From Rhodothermales bacterium (GTDB lineage: Bacteria > Bacteroidota > Rhodothermia > Rhodothermales > UBA10348): a DNA stretch of 64,000 nucleotides. The DNA is taken from assembly GCA_024711125.1 (NCBI GenBank), contig JANJTM010000025.1, forward strand, positions 124,001 through 188,000. The letters run 5' to 3'. Each line of letters starts with the position of its first letter. The first letter of the stretch is position 1. The notes below the pieces were generated by a model, which was not told where the DNA came from, did no database searches, and saw only the letters and a list, made by a program, of their open reading frames with translations. Positions 43,488-51,023 of the stretch are shown here, one piece after another. The translations under genes and the position numbers were made by a program.

Positions 43488-44693
43488 TTGGCCGCGAAGT
43501 CTGCCCGCCTCATCGTCATCGACGAACGCGACGACAGCCGCGTTCCGTACCTGCGCGGTATCCTGACGAGGTCGATCCAGGACGCGGGCATCCCGTTCCA
43601 CGAGGCGTATCGCATCGCCGGGGAAGTGCGCGACCGGCTCGGGGACCGCATCGAGATCCGTTCGAACGAACTGCGCCAGGTGGTCGGCGAACGCCTGCGC
43701 GAAACGGGCCACGCCGACGCCGTTCTACGCTACCTGACTCCGCGCGACGAGCGGGTGCTGTTCCACGTGCGCAGCCGGAACGGGGAGACGGCGCCGTTCT
43801 CCCGCGGGCTCCTGGCGCAGTCGTTCGAGATCTGCGCCATCGCCCGCGACGAGATGTATGCCGTCGCGGGGGAAGTGGAGGCGTCCCTGTCGGCCGCAGG
43901 TCAACGCACCGTTACCACGTCCGATATCGGACAGGCCGCGGCCCGTGCGCTGAGACGGCGTTTCGGGGCCGAAGTGTCGGGCCGATACGTGCGTTGGGTC
44001 GACTTCAGCCGGTCGGGAGAACCGCTGATCCTGCTCGTCGGCGGCACGACCGGGTGCGGAAAGAGCACGCTGAGCGCCATGCTGGCCCACCGCCTGGGCA
44101 TCGTGCGCACGCAGTCGACCGACATGCTGCGGGAAGTGATGCGGCTGCTGATCCCGGTCAAGCTGATGCCCAGCCTGCACGAGTCGTCGTTCGGCGCGTA
44201 CCGGGTACTGCCGAGGTGGCTCGGACCCGAGGACGTGCTCGTCGAGCCGCACATGCTCGACGGGTACCTGATGCAGGCCGACGAGGTCGCCGTCGCCGTC
44301 GAAGGCGTATTCCGGCGGGCGACGCGTGAGCAGGTCTCCCTGATCCTGGAGGGGGTGCACATTCACCCGGCGCTGCAGAAACGCCTCGAGAAGCGCGGGG
44401 AGGGAATCGTCGTCTCGGTCGTACTCGCGGCTCTCAAGAAGAAGCGCCTGAAGAAGCAGCTCACCGGACGCGGACAGCTCATCAAGTCGCGTCGGGCCGA
44501 GCTGTACCTCGACTACCTCGACGAGATCTGGCAGCTGCAGACCTTCCTGCTGTCCGAGGCCGACCGCCACGGGGTGCCTATCGTACACAACCTGTCGGAG
44601 GAAGAGTCCGTACGGCAGGTCGTCCAGCACGTGGCGGACGCTCTCGCGGGACGCTTCTCCGACGACGAGACGATCGTCTTTCCGACCGCCTGA
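43488..44693 (+). CDS. 2-phosphoglycerate kinase-like protein with two ATP-cone domains
   Basis: 401 residues from a TTG at 43488, the only usable start before the first domain. Residues 5-85 look like an ATP-cone, and residues about 88-170 look like a second one (FSRGLLAQSFEICAIARDEMYAVAGEV). A P-loop kinase follows, with Walker A at 185-194 (GGTTGCGKST), then RTQSTDMLREVMR and LILEGVHIHPALQ. This order matches archaeal 2-phosphoglycerate kinase, which starts the path to cyclic 2,3-diphosphoglycerate; archaeal enzymes are near 300 residues. In a bacterium the substrate may differ. It ends 10 bases from the convergent phosphate operon. Confidence 0.75.
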   Translation: MAAKSARLIVIDERDDSRVPYLRGILTRSIQDAGIPFHEAYRIAGEVRDRLGDRIEIRSNELRQVVGERLRETGHADAVLRYLTPRDERVLFHVRSRNGETAPFSRGLLAQSFEICAIARDEMYAVAGEVEASLSAAGQRTVTTSDIGQAAARALRRRFGAEVSGRYVRWVDFSRSGEPLILLVGGTTGCGKSTLSAMLAHRLGIVRTQSTDMLREVMRLLIPVKLMPSLHESSFGAYRVLPRWLGPEDVLVEPHMLDGYLMQADEVAVAVEGVFRRATREQVSLILEGVHIHPALQKRLEKRGEGIVVSVVLAALKKKRLKKQLTGRGQLIKSRRAELYLDYLDEIWQLQTFLLSEADRHGVPIVHNLSEEESVRQVVQHVADALAGRFSDDETIVFPTA

Positions 44694-44703
44694 ACGCCGG
44701 GCC

Positions 44704-45516
44704 TCAGCCGTACTTGCCCTCGATGTAGTCGGCCGTCCGCGTATCCTCGGGCGTCACGAAGAGACGGTCGGTGGGCCCGTGCTCGACCATGCGGCCCATG
44801 AGCATGAACGCGCACTCGTCGCTGGCGCGCCGCGCCTGCGCCATGTTGTGGGTCACGAGCAGGATCGTGTATTCCCCGCGCAGCTGCCAGATCAGATCCT
44901 CCACCGCGGCCGTGGCCTTGGGGTCGAGCGCCGAGCAGGGTTCGTCCATCAGGATCACCTTGGGCTTGACGGGCAGCAGGCGCGCGATGCACAGCTTCTG
45001 CTGCTCTTCGAGCGACAGCCCGGTGGCCGACCGGTCGAGGCGATCCTTGACGGTGTCCCACAGCAGCACTTCCCGGAGCGCCTTCTCCACGATGGCATCC
45101 CGATCGGCCTTCGGCAACGCCTCGCTGCCCGGCTCGTGCAGCTGGTGCGCGAAGAGGATGTTCTCGCGGATCGAGAGGGGCAGGGGGTTGGGGCGCTGGA
45201 ACACCATGCCCACGTGCCGCCGGAGTTGGGTCAGCTCGATCCCGCTCGCGTACACATCGGTGTCGAGTACCTCCACCTTTCCCTCGGTGCGCACGTACCC
45301 GAGTCGCTCGTTGATACGGTTGACGCACCGGAGCAGCGTCGATTTTCCGCAGCCCGACGGTCCGATCAGCGACGTGATCAGGCCCCTGCGCACGGCGAAA
45401 TCGACGTCGTAGAGGGCCTGGAACGACCCGTACCACAGGCTCAGCTTCTCGGTTCGGACGGCGATCTCCTGCGTGTCGGTCAGCGGATCAACCGAATCGT
45501 CCTTCGATGTAGTCAC
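44704..45516 (-). CDS. pstB: Phosphate ABC transporter ATPase, PstB copy 1 (altered signature motif)
   Basis: 270 residues from a GTG at 45516. Walker A is GPSGCGKST at 52-60, the Q-loop glutamine is 107 (VFQRPN), Walker B ends in DEP at 191-193, and the H-loop histidine is 223 (VTHNM). The signature motif, however, is LSLEEQQKL at 167-175 in place of LSGGQQQR. Everything else is PstB-like. It overlaps the second pstB gene by 29 bases. On its own it would have poor signature contacts in a homodimer, but it can complement the partner copy, whose signature is intact but whose Q- and H-loops are changed. It is the last gene of the operon. Confidence 0.9.
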   Translation of the reverse strand: MTTSKDDSVDPLTDTQEIAVRTEKLSLWYGSFQALYDVDFAVRRGLITSLIGPSGCGKSTLLRCVNRINERLGYVRTEGKVEVLDTDVYASGIELTQLRRHVGMVFQRPNPLPLSIRENILFAHQLHEPGSEALPKADRDAIVEKALREVLLWDTVKDRLDRSATGLSLEEQQKLCIARLLPVKPKVILMDEPCSALDPKATAAVEDLIWQLRGEYTILLVTHNMAQARRASDECAFMLMGRMVEHGPTDRLFVTPEDTRTADYIEGKYG

Positions 45517-46252
45517 GGGTCTCGGGGAATAACGTTTCGCCGTTGAAAAGGCTCTCGGTGGAGCCCAGCTCCACCATGCGCCCGTCCAGGAAGAAGGCGG
45601 TCCGGTCGGCCAGACGCCGCGCCTGCTGCACCAGGTTCGTGACGAGGATGATCGTCATCTCCTGGCGCAGCTCCTTCAGCACATCCTCGATGCGCATGGT
45701 CGTGACGGGGTCCACCGCGATCGAGAACTCGTCCAGCATGAGCAGGACCGGGTCCTGCGACAGCGCACGCGCGATGGTCAACCGCTGCTGCTGACCGCCC
45801 GAGAGCAGGCTGCCCAGCGAATCCAGCCGGTCCTTGACCTCGTCCCACAGGGCGGCGCGCCGCAGGCAGCGCTCCACGATCTCGTCGAGTTCGGCCCGGG
45901 ACCGCTTTCCCGCGAGACGCGGCGCGAAAGCCACGTTGTCGTACACGGTGAGCGGAAGCCCGACCGGAAGCGGAAATACGACGCCGATCTGACGCCGAAG
46001 CGCGTAGGCGTTACGCCAGGCCCGAACGTCCCGTCCGAGGAAATTCAGCGTGCCGGTCACCTTCATGGACGCGTTGAAGGCGTCCATCCGGTTGATCGCC
46101 TGGAGGAACGAGGTCTTCCCGGCCCCGGCCGGCCCGATGATGCCGAGGATCTCGTTCTCGCGCACGTCGAGCGTCACGCCGGACAGCACCGTCTTGCTGC
46201 CGTACGCGATCGACAGGTCGCGAACGTCGAGGATGGATTCCGATCCGTTCAT
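45488..46252 (-). CDS. pstB: Phosphate ABC transporter ATPase, PstB copy 2 (Q-loop and H-loop lost)
   Basis: 254 residues from an ATG at 46252, 4 bases after the pstA stop. Walker A is GPAGAGKTS at 40-48, the signature LSGGQQQ at 150-156 is perfect, and Walker B keeps Asp174-Glu175. But the Q-loop glutamine is replaced by Pro94 (VVFPLP), and the H-loop histidine by Asn206 (LVTNL). YDNVAFAPR and AFFLDGRMVELG confirm PstB ancestry. Loss of the switch histidine normally stops hydrolysis at that site. The paired copy has the complementary defect, so an asymmetric heterodimer is the simplest reading. An in-frame ATG at 46276 would overlap pstA. Confidence 0.88.
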   Translation of the reverse strand: MNGSESILDVRDLSIAYGSKTVLSGVTLDVRENEILGIIGPAGAGKTSFLQAINRMDAFNASMKVTGTLNFLGRDVRAWRNAYALRRQIGVVFPLPVGLPLTVYDNVAFAPRLAGKRSRAELDEIVERCLRRAALWDEVKDRLDSLGSLLSGGQQQRLTIARALSQDPVLLMLDEFSIAVDPVTTMRIEDVLKELRQEMTIILVTNLVQQARRLADRTAFFLDGRMVELGSTESLFNGETLFPETRDYIEGRFG

Positions 46253-46256
46253 CGCC

Positions 46257-47126
46257 TCACCACTTCTTGCGGCCACGCAGCCACGTCCGGAACCCGATTG
46301 ACAGCGCGTTCATCGAAAGCACGATGATGATGAGCAGCAGGGCGACCCCGTACGGGAAGTCTTCGGGCACCCCGGGCACCTGCGTGGAGATCACGAACAG
46401 GTGCAGGGAGAGCGCCATCGTCTTGTCGAAGATCGTCTGCGGCAGGAACGGCACGAAAAAGGCCGCGCCGGTGAACATGATCGGTGCCGTTTCGCCGGCG
46501 GTCCGCGACACTTCCAGGATCACGCCCGTGAGAATGCCGCTGACCGAATTCGGAAGCACCACGCGGCGGATGGTCTGCCAGCGCGTGGCGCCCATCGCCC
46601 AGCACGCCTCCCGAAACGCGTGGGGGACCGCCTGGAGCGACTCCCGGGTCGCGACGATTACGACCGGCAGCGCCATGATGGCGAGCGTCAGGCTGGCCGC
46701 GAGGATCGACGTGCCGAATCCGAAGAAGATCACGAAAGCTCCGACGCCGAACAGCGCGTGCACGATCGACGGAACGCCGGCGAGGTTGATGATGGCCAGG
46801 TTGATCGACCGGGTCAGCCAGTTGTCGGGCGCGTACTCGCTCAGGTAGATCGCGGCCGCGATGCCCAGGGGCACCGAGAAGACGAGTCCCATCGTCACGA
46901 GGATGATCGTGCCGAGAAACGCCGGGAAGATGCCGCCCGCCGTCATGCCGCTCTTCGGAAACTCGAACAGGAACTCGGCCGTCAGGACCGGCCCTCCACG
47001 CACGACGAGCAGGCCCAGGATGATGAGCACCGGCAGGACCAGCAGGAGCGTCATGCCCAGGAACACGTTCCGGTAGCGACGCTGGATCCGGTCGTTGGTT
47101 CGGTTTCGATCGGTGGCGGCGAACAT
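46257..47126 (-). CDS. pstA: Phosphate ABC transporter permease PstA
   Basis: 289 residues from an ATG at 47126, leaving one base after the pstC stop; an alternative ATG at 47159 would overlap pstC by 32 bases. About six membrane helices are seen. The first is LGMTLLLVLPVLIILGLLVV. The EAA-type loop that touches the ATPase reads REACWAMGATRWQTIRRVVLP, and TAGETAPIMFTG is typical for PstA. It pairs with PstC to form the inner-membrane channel for phosphate. It sits between pstC and the two pstB genes. Confidence 0.93.
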   Translation of the reverse strand: MFAATDRNRTNDRIQRRYRNVFLGMTLLLVLPVLIILGLLVVRGGPVLTAEFLFEFPKSGMTAGGIFPAFLGTIILVTMGLVFSVPLGIAAAIYLSEYAPDNWLTRSINLAIINLAGVPSIVHALFGVGAFVIFFGFGTSILAASLTLAIMALPVVIVATRESLQAVPHAFREACWAMGATRWQTIRRVVLPNSVSGILTGVILEVSRTAGETAPIMFTGAAFFVPFLPQTIFDKTMALSLHLFVISTQVPGVPEDFPYGVALLLIIIVLSMNALSIGFRTWLRGRKKW

Positions 47127-47127
47127 G

Positions 47128-48036
47128 TCAGGAATTGCGGATTCCGCGTACGACGACATCGGCCGTCAGGTTGATCAGGAACGTGATCAGGAAAAGAAAG
47201 AGTCCCAGCGTGAAGAGCGCGCCGTAGTGATCCGATCCCACGGCGGTCTCGCCGAGTTCGGCCGCGATCGTGGCCGTCAGGGCACGCACCGAGTCGAACG
47301 GGCTGGTAGGCAGGTTGATCGAATGGCCCGATGCCATGAGCACCGCCATGGTCTCGCCGAATCCCCGTCCGACGCCCAGCAGCACGGCCGATACGAGCCC
47401 GTTCTTCGCCGCCGGGAGCACGACACGGCGGATCATCTGCCACCGGGTGGCGCCCATCGCCTCGGCGGCCTCCCGGTACCGGTCGGGAACGGCCTTGAGC
47501 GCGTCCTCGGCGATCGTCGTCATGATCGGCGCCGCCATGAGGCCCAGGATGATGCCCGCGTTCAGGACGTTGAGCCCGATAGGCACGTCGAAGACGTCGA
47601 TGATCAGGCCGTTGACGATCGTAAGGCCGATGAACCCCCATACGACCGAAGGGATTGCGGCCAGCAGCTCGACCAACACCTTAAGGGTCTCCCGGGACCG
47701 CCCGGTCGCGAACTCCGAGATGTAGACCGCCGCCCCGAGAGAGAACGGAATCGCAACGAGCATCGCGACGCCCGTCACGCTCGCCGTGCCCACCATGAGG
47801 GCCAGCGCGCCGTAGGTCGCGTTGTTCGTCGAGGTCGGCGCCCAGCGGATCGACGTGAAGAACTCCACGACGTCGAACCGCGAGAAGACGAACTGGAGCG
47901 CCTCGCGCGTGATGAACACGAAGATGCCGACGATGAAGACGACGGCCGAGATGCCGCCCAGGAACATCAGGACCTGGACGATCCGGTCCACGATCCATGC
48001 CCGGTCGATGCGGTCCGTCGAGAGGGATGCGCGCAT
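47128..48036 (-). CDS. pstC: Phosphate ABC transporter permease PstC
   Basis: 302 residues with about six helices; the first is VLMFLGGISAVVFIVGIFVFI. Typical stretches are FSLGAAVYISEFA, AIPSVVWGFIGL, the ATPase contact loop REAAEAMGATRWQMIRRVVLP, and GFGETMAVLMASG. It is the second permease of the Pst complex. Its start is one base beyond the phoU stop, so the two are co-translated, and pstA follows with 1 base between. Confidence 0.94.
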   Translation of the reverse strand: MRASLSTDRIDRAWIVDRIVQVLMFLGGISAVVFIVGIFVFITREALQFVFSRFDVVEFFTSIRWAPTSTNNATYGALALMVGTASVTGVAMLVAIPFSLGAAVYISEFATGRSRETLKVLVELLAAIPSVVWGFIGLTIVNGLIIDVFDVPIGLNVLNAGIILGLMAAPIMTTIAEDALKAVPDRYREAAEAMGATRWQMIRRVVLPAAKNGLVSAVLLGVGRGFGETMAVLMASGHSINLPTSPFDSVRALTATIAAELGETAVGSDHYGALFTLGLFLFLITFLINLTADVVVRGIRNS

Positions 48037-48037
48037 G

Positions 48038-49087
48038 TCAGGTTGCCGGATCGGGACCGCGGAGCGTATCCATCAGCTCGGCGATGGCGTTCGAGAGGAA
48101 ACGGTACCGGTCCTCGATCGACCCGCCGGCCTCCCAGCTCAGGCCCACGGTATGGAACGGCATGTCGCCCACGATGCGACCGACAGGTCCCGACAGGCTG
48201 ACGACGACATCCCAGGAAGCCCAGTCGACCGGGGACGAGGTCGGAGACTCGACCGAGGGGTCACCCAACCCCCGGTCGTCGAGGAACCTGCGCACCGCAT
48301 CACCCACATCGGGCGCACCGGAGGAGCCCAGCGACCCGTAGACGCCCGTGGTCGGGTGCTGCCGGCGCGCGATCGCCACCGCCAGACTCGCGTATGCGGC
48401 CTCCGATTCGTCGACGAACAGGACGCGAACGGGTCTGCGCCGCTTGGTCTGACCGGTGAGCGCGAAAACCGTCTCCTCGCAGAGGTTCTTCGCCTGGTCC
48501 GATACACGCTCGATCTGCATGATCACGATCAGGCGGCCGAACACGTCCTTCATGCCGAGCGAACCGACATCCGACGCCAGCAGGTCCCCGAACGCGTCGG
48601 CGAACTCCCGGTCGACCCCGTCGGCCTCCTGCATCGTCGCGCGGGCCAACGCCTCGTCCCGCTTTTCGAACGCCTCGATCGCGCGGGAAAACATGGCGAC
48701 CGAGTCATTGGCCATGCGGGACACCTTGTCCCGGAAGACGCCCGATATGTCCGAGCGGAACTGCACGCTCTCCCGGCATATCGTCGTCGCGTAGTCGCCG
48801 ACCCGCTCCAGCAGGATGGCCATGCGCATGGCCGACGAAACGAAGCGCAGGTGACCGGCCGCCGGCAGGTGCCGTGCGATGAACCGGTGGCAGTCTGCCT
48901 CGATGCGCTCGGTTTCCCGGTTGACGGGATGGTCGGCCAGGATCGTCCGGTAGGCGAGGTCGTCGTCTCCGGACGTGAGCGCCGCAATCGCCTGCGACAG
49001 GTTCGAACGAACCCGCCGGGCCAGGTCGAGGACCGACGCCCTGAGCGCGTCGAGGTCCGCCTCCAGCCGCTGTTCGTAAATGGTCAT
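48038..49087 (-). CDS. phoU: PhoU fused to a degenerate low-molecular-weight phosphatase-like domain
   Basis: 349 residues; plain PhoU proteins are about 220-240. Residues 1-212 hold two PhoU three-helix repeats with the metal-binding patterns LLERVGDYATTIC and QIERVSDQAKNLCEE. From about 217 a second domain starts: VRVLFVDESEAAYASLAVAIA, then TGVYGSLGS and WDVVVSLSG. This resembles the arsenate reductase/low-molecular-weight phosphatase fold, but the catalytic CxxxxxR loop is replaced by DESEAAYAS, with no Cys or Arg. PhoU links Pst transport to the PhoR kinase. The extra domain could bind phosphate without catalysis (inference). It lies between pstS and pstC. Confidence 0.82.
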   Translation of the reverse strand: MTIYEQRLEADLDALRASVLDLARRVRSNLSQAIAALTSGDDDLAYRTILADHPVNRETERIEADCHRFIARHLPAAGHLRFVSSAMRMAILLERVGDYATTICRESVQFRSDISGVFRDKVSRMANDSVAMFSRAIEAFEKRDEALARATMQEADGVDREFADAFGDLLASDVGSLGMKDVFGRLIVIMQIERVSDQAKNLCEETVFALTGQTKRRRPVRVLFVDESEAAYASLAVAIARRQHPTTGVYGSLGSSGAPDVGDAVRRFLDDRGLGDPSVESPTSSPVDWASWDVVVSLSGPVGRIVGDMPFHTVGLSWEAGGSIEDRYRFLSNAIAELMDTLRGPDPAT

Positions 49088-49124: not shown

Positions 49125-50012
49125 CTACTGCGCCACCGCGCATTCGACCGGCCGGTAGGGGGCGTAGCCCTTGTCGGCGATGATGCACTGGCCCTCGTCG
49201 CTGAGGATCCAGTCGAGATAGGCCTTCACATGGCCCTGCGGCTCCCCGTCCGAGTACATGAAGAGCGGGCGGGCGATGGGGTAGGAGCGGTCGATGGCCG
49301 TAGTCTCCGAAGGGGTAACGCACGTACCGGCAGCGTCAACCACGCAGGGCATGTGCACGTGTTCGGTCGCGTACGCGAGACCGCTGTAGCCGATGGCGCA
49401 GGGCGTATCCATGACCAGGTCGACCACGTCCTTCGATCCGTGCATGTCGCGCGATCCCAGCTTGAAGTCCTCCTCGTGCAGCACGGCTTCGCGGAAGTAT
49501 TCGTACGTGCCCGAGTTATTCTGCCGCGAGATCCGGATGATCTCGCCGCTGGCGCAGCCCGGTACGGTCACGCCGAGCTGTTCCCAACGCTCGATCGTCC
49601 CGTTTTCTCCGTAAATGCCCGCCAGTTGCTCGAGCGTGATCTGCTGCAGCGGATTGTCGTTGTGCAGGTAGATGGCGAGCGCGTCGTAGCCCACGATATG
49701 CTCGATCGGGGTGTGGTTGTTCGCGATCGCGTTCTGCTTTTCCTCTTCCGACATCTCGCGGGAGGAGTTGGCGATGTCGACCGTGCCGTTGATCAGGGCC
49801 GCGATGCCGGTGCCCGAACCGCCGCCGGTGACGGCCACCGCGACGTTCGGCTCGACCGTCTGGTAGGCTTCGGCCCAGGCCTGGGCCACGTTCACGAGGG
49901 TGTCTGAGCCCTTGTTCTCGATGACCTGCCGGGAGCCGGAGTTCGCGCCCGGACGCCCGCATCCCGCGACGAGGACGAACAGGACGAGGAGGGAGTAGGC
50001 TGGCTTCTTCAT
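49125..50012 (-). CDS. pstS: Phosphate-binding lipoprotein PstS
   Basis: 295 residues with a lipoprotein signal (YSLLVLFVLVAGC, Cys18). The phosphate-binding protein body is clear: IENKGSDTLVNVAQAWAEAY, VTGGGSGTGIAALINGTVDIANSSR and IRISRQNNSGTYEYF, the loops that hold phosphate. It captures phosphate in the periplasm for PstCA. It sits after the porin gene with 39 bases between them, and before phoU. Four cysteines in the mature part could form disulfides (for example near PGCAS and TPCAI). Confidence 0.94.
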   Translation of the reverse strand: MKKPAYSLLVLFVLVAGCGRPGANSGSRQVIENKGSDTLVNVAQAWAEAYQTVEPNVAVAVTGGGSGTGIAALINGTVDIANSSREMSEEEKQNAIANNHTPIEHIVGYDALAIYLHNDNPLQQITLEQLAGIYGENGTIERWEQLGVTVPGCASGEIIRISRQNNSGTYEYFREAVLHEEDFKLGSRDMHGSKDVVDLVMDTPCAIGYSGLAYATEHVHMPCVVDAAGTCVTPSETTAIDRSYPIARPLFMYSDGEPQGHVKAYLDWILSDEGQCIIADKGYAPYRPVECAVAQ

Positions 50013-50051: not shown

Positions 50052-51023
50052 TCAGAAGTCGGCATGGACCGTCACGCGCGCGGTGACGAGCGGATCCGGT
50101 GCCGTGAGGTTCTTGTCGATGGTTACGTTCGGAATCACCGCCAGGCCGTCGGCGGCACGAAAGGAGAGACCGGCCAGGCCATACCAGCCCGACCGGCGCG
50201 CACCGTCAGGGCCCATGGAGTAGCTGTCGTACCGGCCGACCGCTTCCACGCGGTGAGAAACCCTGGCGGCGGCGAAGATGCTCGCACCCGACCGATCCGT
50301 GGTCGAGCCCGTACCATCCTCACGTACCGGGCTGAGGAAGGCCTCCACTCCGGCCCGGAAGGAATCCGTTTCCCACCCGGCGAACGCGTTCGCCGTCACG
50401 GTTTCCGAGCCGGCCTGCGGCGCGTAATCGCCTCCCATCGTGACGGTCCAGCCGGATGCCGGCACCCATTCGAGTTGACCGTACAATCTCTTGTATCGAT
50501 CGCCGTCCGGGTTAACCGAATTGTTATTTGCGAACATGACGTTGTAGCGGACGACCTTCCCGAGGAGCGGGCCCGACGCCCGCACGCCGAAATCGCGGGA
50601 AGACGCGATGCGCAGGCGATCCATGATCGTCGCCTCGAGACTGCGGTATCCGAGGAATCGCTCCGACGTCTCCCACCCCGGGGGAGCGGTGACGCCGAAA
50701 TACACGTCGTGGCCCTCACCGAACGCGTCGTGCCAACGGACGAACAGGTCCTTGACGAACGGGCTCGGGCGTCCGGCGCTGTTGGTCGCGTTGTCATTCG
50801 CCTCGAGGCGTGCCCGAACCGAAATCCGTTCGCTCGTCCGGTGGTCGACCGTGAGGTAGAGCCGCCGATAGCCGAATCCGTTTTCGCCGGCGCGCGAACC
50901 GTCACGCGTCGCTACGACGTACCCGTAATCCGAATAGAGGAGGCCGCTCACACGGAGGGACGACTGGGCGGAAGAGTCGGTCACGGTCAGGGCGAGTGCA
51001 AGCAGGAGAAACCCGGTGCGCAT
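50052..51023 (-). CDS. Outer-membrane beta-barrel porin, first gene of the phosphate operon
   Basis: 323 residues with a signal peptide (GFLLLALALTVTDSSAQ). The mature part alternates polar and hydrophobic residues, has many aromatic residues at strand ends (YSDYGYVV, GFGYRRLYLTVD, WYGLAGLSF), and ends in HADF, as outer-membrane barrels do. It resembles the short porins near pst genes in other Bacteroidota-like bacteria. Its place at the head of the pst operon suggests that it lets phosphate or a phosphate compound into the periplasm; this is inferred from position. It starts 25 bases from the repeat array at 51048-51102. Confidence 0.7.
   Translation of the reverse strand: MRTGFLLLALALTVTDSSAQSSLRVSGLLYSDYGYVVATRDGSRAGENGFGYRRLYLTVDHRTSERISVRARLEANDNATNSAGRPSPFVKDLFVRWHDAFGEGHDVYFGVTAPPGWETSERFLGYRSLEATIMDRLRIASSRDFGVRASGPLLGKVVRYNVMFANNNSVNPDGDRYKRLYGQLEWVPASGWTVTMGGDYAPQAGSETVTANAFAGWETDSFRAGVEAFLSPVREDGTGSTTDRSGASIFAAARVSHRVEAVGRYDSYSMGPDGARRSGWYGLAGLSFRAADGLAVIPNVTIDKNLTAPDPLVTARVTVHADF

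Follow-up and report, generated by a model that had tools for sequence, protein, structure and literature searches.

A PhoU protein fused to an arsenate reductase-fold domain without catalytic residues, encoded in a variant pst operon with two complementary PstB ATPases

We analysed a stretch of 64,000 nucleotides (the window) from the genome of a Rhodothermales bacterium, on contig JANJTM010000025.1. One gene in it encodes a PhoU protein joined to a domain with the fold of arsenate reductases (ArsC) and low-molecular-weight phosphatases (LMWPTP), in which the catalytic residues have been lost. The gene belongs to a pst operon that also encodes two tandem PstB ATPases with complementary motif defects. 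Sequence comparison gives about an even chance to the reading that this is a distinct Pst variant, in which the tail would neither reduce arsenate nor remove phosphate and would act as a docking or allosteric module of an asymmetric Pst sensor complex.

Composition of the fusion protein and loss of the catalytic residues

The fusion gene and its parts were located in the window as follows.

48038..49087 (−): phoU-pseudoArsC gene, 349 amino acids, ATG start
48452..49087 (−): PhoU part, residues 1-212, two PhoU repeats (PF01895, TIGR02135, Foldseek to 2i0m and 4q25)
48053..48436 (−): domain of ArsC/LMWPTP fold, catalytic residues lost, residues 218-345 (profiles, AlphaFold2, Foldseek)
48386..48412 (−): former catalytic P-loop DESEAAYAS, residues 226-234 (alignment to ArsC)
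48134..48136 (−): Trp318, the sole invariant tail residue, 72/72 (alignment of 72 members)

A reading of the letters alone (the sequence-only reading) had proposed PhoU repeats up to about residue 212 and a C-terminal ArsC/LMWPTP fold, and both were borne out. The Pfam search of the window protein found two PhoU repeats (PF01895, E = 1.5e-27), and residues 6-213 scored 132.5 bits against TIGR02135 (phoU_full), above its cut-off of 130.25, which classes this part as a PhoU equivalog. The tail of the window protein alone (residues 218-345) matched no family among the Pfam and NCBIfam profiles, because the tail of this particular protein has diverged; 52/72 family members matched PF01451 (LMWPc) at E ≤ 0.1, the best at 8e-9. 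A profile built from the tail found arsenate reductases in the PDB at 1.9e-16, with LMW phosphatases ranking lower, and it found standalone ArsC proteins with intact CT(G/H)NSxR loops at 6e-20 to 9e-16. AlphaFold2 modelled the full-length protein with a pLDDT of 93.4 and the tail alone with a pLDDT of 86.5. In Foldseek searches PhoU structures (2i0m, 4q25) ranked first for the full-length protein, followed by ArsC, and ArsC ranked first for the tail alone (3t38, 8p5n; probability 1.00, TM up to 0.77). Whole-domain profile and predicted fold thus assign the tail to the ArsC/LMWPTP superfamily. The two results that the sequence-only reading had named as fatal to itself, another confident fold and a lack of family support in homologues, were both looked for and neither appeared. 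More than 70 homologues of non-identical sequence keep the full-length fusion and the gene order around it, so the fusion is more than chance; full-length homologues in several phyla rule out a chance ORF or a frameshift artefact.

The loss of the catalytic loop, also proposed beforehand, was confirmed by alignment. The window loop D226-E-S-E-A-A-Y-A-S234 aligned exactly with C-T-x-N-S-x-R of ArsC, with Asp226 in place of the nucleophilic Cys and Tyr232 in place of the loop Arg. Among the 72 aligned members the catalytic Cys position was occupied by Asp (68), Gly (2), Asn (1) or Glu (1) and never by Cys, and the loop Arg was retained in one member (L098). The CX5R loop of a functional arsenate reductase or LMW phosphatase was found in none of them, and the 82-89 region, where the resolving Cys pair would lie, had no conserved Cys among the aligned members. 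L116, L118 and L119, which were fetched later and stand outside the 72, retained the Arg but have Asp or Glu where the Cys would be. Since these three keep the Arg without the Cys, loss of the Cys looks older than loss of the Arg.

The variant pst operon, its two PstB ATPases and its origins

The fusion gene sits between pstS and pstC, as the sequence-only reading had placed it, and the TIGR02136 and TIGR02138 matches of the neighbours agree. That reading had missed the two complementary PstB ATPases and the intact PhoU-ArsC fusions found elsewhere. The other features of the operon were as follows.

50052..51023 (−): porin-like ORF upstream of pstS, position conserved in Rhodothermales loci
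49125..50012 (−): pstS, phosphate-binding protein (TIGR02136, over cut-off)
47128..48036 (−): pstC permease (TIGR02138, over cut-off)
46257..47159 (−): pstA permease (TIGR00974, over cut-off)
45488..46276 (−): pstB1 ATPase, LSGGQ intact, Pro102 in place of the Q-loop Gln and Asn214 in place of the switch His
44704..45516 (−): pstB2 ATPase, Walker A/B, Q-loop and His intact, LSLEEQ in place of LSGGQ
45001-45018 (−): pstB2 signature LSLEEQ, residues 167-172 (motif reading)

The porin-like ORF had no Pfam or NCBIfam match and may belong to the operon. The gene order pstS - phoU-pseudoArsC - pstC - pstA - pstB1 - pstB2 was found nearly everywhere; in Verrucomicrobiota the fusion gene stands before pstS. 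Homologues of the pseudo-fusion came from Rhodothermales, Gammaproteobacteria, Acidobacteriota, Myxococcota (Polyangiaceae), Krumholzibacteriia and Verrucomicrobiota, with the phyla taken from the record titles as deposited, many of the records being MAGs. Rhodothermales MAGs are among the window's own relatives, and the gammaproteobacterial carriers include Thiodiazotropha and tubeworm symbionts. In many gammaproteobacterial loci PhoB/PhoR-like genes (clusters c2 and c6, identified by eye) lie 3′ of pstB2. A truncated PhoR query, without the ATPase domain and run with no control, found no match in the window's own genome. Neither the pseudo-fusion nor the intact fusion had a match in 72,556 plasmids, and plasmid-borne spread was rejected on this result.

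Several other genes were recorded. At 43488-44693 (+), convergent with the pst operon, the window carries an ATP-cone and 2-phosphoglycerate-kinase-like gene (PRK04220, 268 bits, below cut-off), which falls into one cluster with 24 genes located close to this operon in Rhodothermales and in some Gammaproteobacteria. The window genome has a second PhoU, ordinary but diverged, of 247 amino acids (L114:4432-5172 (−), contig C61), and in Rhodothermia genome G178 a second ordinary phoU directly follows pstB2 of the variant operon (L115:3990-4715 (−)). In one verrucomicrobial locus (L122:7356-8210 (−)) the pseudo-fusion runs in frame into the last part of PstB2, with everything from pstS to pstB1 apparently missing; either a deletion or an assembly error would produce this.

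Two tandem PstB ATPases accompany the pseudo-fusion in every readable operon. In PstB1 the Q-loop Gln was replaced by Pro in 56/56 sequences read and the switch His by Asn in all sequences with a readable H-loop, and LSGGQ was intact in all. In PstB2 (55/55 read) the Q-loop, Walker motifs and His were all intact, and the place of LSGGQ was taken by LSLEEQ, LSLEQQ, LALEEQ or LQLEQQ. The canonical PstB of related loci, read in the same table, had intact motifs. Both proteins fell below the cut-off of 343.2 bits for the canonical PstB equivalog TIGR00972 (PstB1 273.9, PstB2 313.3), which was nonetheless the best family match of each. PstB1 formed one clade in the tree (100/99), as did PstB2 (98/94). 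Each ATP site is built from two subunits, one providing Walker A/B, Q and H and its partner the signature (PMC7756269). The motifs of PstB2 combined with the signature of PstB1 would thus give one canonical site, and the opposite pairing a dead one. The complementary motif loss in two NBD subunits that defines degenerate-site ABC proteins was seen across 56 PstB1 and 55 PstB2 sequences. Since each homodimer would miss a needed motif at both sites, we infer an obligate PstB1-PstB2 heterodimer in which one ATP site hydrolyses and the other is dead.

The fusion was found in 8/369 genomes of the Gammaproteobacteria sample, and the PstB1 type in exactly those 8. In Rhodothermia 23/245 genomes had the fusion and 20 had PstB1, all 20 among the 23; in the three others the contig runs out within the remainder of the operon or ahead of it, before pstB is reached. 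The Verrucomicrobiota sample (289) held four pseudo-fusions with a readable operon, 4/4 with asymmetric PstB. In the same phylum an ordinary PhoU stands last in the operon in two genomes whose PstB1/PstB2 are of the kind described above, and also in a group more distant from them (L126-L130); in L128-L130 the Q-loop Gln of PstB1 is replaced by Ala, not Pro, and the PstB2 signature is LP(M/L)DQQ. In all data seen the pseudo-fusion implied asymmetric PstB. The converse failed, and a strict need of asymmetric PstB for the fusion is ruled out by the ordinary PhoU of L126-L130. Because the genes share one operon, the linkage of fusion and PstB1 indicates a co-inherited module, not contact.

Three fusions of PhoU with an intact ArsC were also found.

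L120, 7183-8277 (−): intact PhoU-ArsC fusion in a pst operon with ordinary PstB
L121, 7526-8626 (+): intact PhoU-ArsC fusion in a pst operon with ordinary PstB
L123, 6828-7973 (−): intact PhoU-ArsC fusion in a pst operon with ordinary PstB

They keep the Cys and the Arg (LMWPc 66 bits where tested) and stand at the end of a pst operon with a single canonical PstB; in L120 and L121 an ArsR-ArsC fusion gene lies ahead of pstS. The pseudo-domains grouped together as one clade (95/92) in the ArsC tree, and the PhoU parts attached to them did so (100/99) in the PhoU tree, which establishes a single origin at the level of phylogeny. The intact fusions fell outside the pseudo clade in both trees, with L123 apart from L120/L121. 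Because these groups do not join and L123 is separate, PhoU and ArsC were joined at least twice and probably three times. A common origin of active and pseudo fusions found no support, there being no grouping in either the ArsC or the PhoU tree.

Possible roles of the tail

Trp318 was invariant among the 72 members, and Pro310, Asp226, Gly254 and Ser252 were nearly so; all five are among the most conserved positions of the tail. In close pairs (dS < ~0.7, dN < 0.1; more distant pairs were saturated and left out) the tail had a dN/dS of ~0.07-0.33, indicating purifying selection. From the conserved residues around the former active site, the purifying selection and the linkage within the operon we take the tail to be a module for docking or allostery without catalysis, a reading weaker than that of the PstB heterodimer. 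Its docking surface would be the face of the old active site (Asp226, Ser252-Ala-Gly254, Pro310, Trp318), which would hold PhoU in a single orientation, either on the asymmetric PstB1-PstB2 pair or on the sensor kinase. PhoU so oriented could read out the turnover state of the transporter, or throttle transport like an ordinary PhoU. PhoU of E. coli binds both PstB and PhoR (PMC4423584), and a contact of the fusion with PhoR, raised in the sequence-only reading, is possible. Against docking, asymmetric PstB also occurs with ordinary PhoU in some Verrucomicrobiota, so the asymmetric ATPase does not depend on the tail; genes of one operon co-occur anyway, which does not prove contact; and evolution is faster in the tail than in the PhoU part, as could be the case for a tethered accessory domain.

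The tail could instead have a mainly structural role, left over from an old PhoU-ArsC fusion that was active and retained because it helps folding, stability or dimerisation. Such a role would suit the divergence of the tail (mean column identity 45%, against 52% for the whole protein) and the existence of intact fusions. We consider this unlikely on balance, though a serious alternative. Purifying selection, the invariant Trp and the conserved residues at the former active-site loop speak against it, as does the fact that no full-length family member without the tail was seen at the fusion's place in this operon type; the intact fusions, moreover, are not sisters of the pseudo clade.

The loop could also have become an acidic pocket for a metal such as Mg2+, or Asp226 a phospho-acceptor as in receiver and HAD domains. 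Asp226 lies at the end of strand 1, is Asp in 68/72 members and is followed by further acidic residues, the commonest versions of the loop being DDDNS and DEDNS. However, the fold and profile matches are to ArsC and to neither receiver nor HAD, no receiver-type partner Lys is among the most conserved tail positions, and the second acidic position shifts from lineage to lineage, so that we hold this reading improbable. A receiver or HAD domain as such, suggested by the VDEDN loop, was ruled out by fold and profile; the receiver features sought (acidic pair, strand 3 phospho-Asp and conserved Lys) were not found, and there was no receiver match. There is a slim chance that the CX5R loop was rebuilt as an Asp-centred acidic pocket giving a metal or phosphoryl input to PhoU, which would gate an importer with one working ATP site. 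If true, phosphate would be sensed here by a device that departs from the Pst/PhoU/PhoR scheme known so far.

The sequence-only reading had supposed that a loop of this kind might still grip phosphate or arsenate, in which case the tail would be an oxyanion sensor signalling to PhoU or PhoR. The ArsC fold normally holds arsenate or phosphate at this loop, and fusion of PhoU with ArsC has happened more than once, with intact fusions in pst operons and two of them behind ArsR-ArsC. In vitro, moreover, the effect of Pi in M. smegmatis is exerted via PhoU, PhoU with Pi switching the kinase to a phosphatase (PMC12301784). The supposition nevertheless went unsupported. At least two of the five loop positions 226-230 are Asp or Glu in 65/72 members, and oxyanions should be repelled by a loop that is acidic and lacks the Arg (Arg 1/72, Cys 0/72). 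Binding of oxyanions in the ancestral way is probably absent, and we regard a sensor of this type as quite doubtful. That the tail is still an arsenate reductase or phosphatase working through other residues, for which its overall fold alone would speak, is ruled out for practical purposes by the loop residues, with nucleophile, loop Arg and resolving Cys equivalents all missing.

How PhoU reads the state of Pst and relays it to PhoR is an old open question. A split, non-equivalent ATPase together with a PhoU that bears a conserved dead-enzyme domain offers a handle on it, as the ATP site, the face and the subunit touched are separable by mutation.

Comparison with known systems

In the open-access papers searched we found no earlier description of this variant Pst system, and none of PhoU fused to ArsC or of a PstB pair with degenerate sites taken singly; a survey of arsenic islands names phoU and pstB without reporting any fusion. 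The repeated joining of PhoU and ArsC, in catalytic and non-catalytic form, is documented here. With ordinary PhoU (TIGR02135; 4q25, 2i0m) the window protein shares the two repeats with their ER-x2-D and R-x2-D-x3-N motifs and the location in a pst operon. Ordinary PhoU has no ArsC-fold tail of ~130 residues, and its gene is last in the operon, whereas the fusion gene lies between pstS and pstC.

Closest to the tail are the thioredoxin/glutaredoxin-linked arsenate reductases of the LMWPTP superfamily, such as those of Synechocystis (2l17), S. aureus pI258 (1jf8) and C. glutamicum (3t38). Fold and whole-length sequence profile are shared, including the W-x3-DP loop region; in the window tail the nucleophilic Cys is replaced by Asp, the P-loop Arg and the resolving Cys are lost, and the domain is fused to PhoU. 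In the intact fusions of L120, L121 and L123, also encoded in pst operons, ArsC likewise follows PhoU, but they differ in their intact CX5R, single ordinary PstB, operon-last gene and separate origins. STYX-type pseudophosphatases have likewise replaced the Cys of CX5R and kept the fold, and they act as adaptors in eukaryotes; they are eukaryotic proteins of the DSP superfamily, whereas the window tail is bacterial and of the ArsC/LMWPTP type.

Two adjacent pstB genes in one operon are also found as PstB1/PstB2 in Enterococcus (PMC12096839) and PstBA/PstBB in Bacillus (PMC11466899); in contrast to these pairs, each PstB of the variant operon misses what its partner has. Degenerate sites are known in ABC exporters, with an altered signature (Pdr5: LNVEQ) and an altered H-loop (PMC7756269). 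TM287/288, TAP and Pdr5 share with the variant the pairing of a canonical and a degenerate composite site, with changes in the same two motifs. They are exporters, whereas the variant Pst is a phosphate importer with a regulator and keeps the Walker B Glu. The variant suggests that importers too, and not exporters alone, have evolved degenerate ATP sites from tandem subunits.
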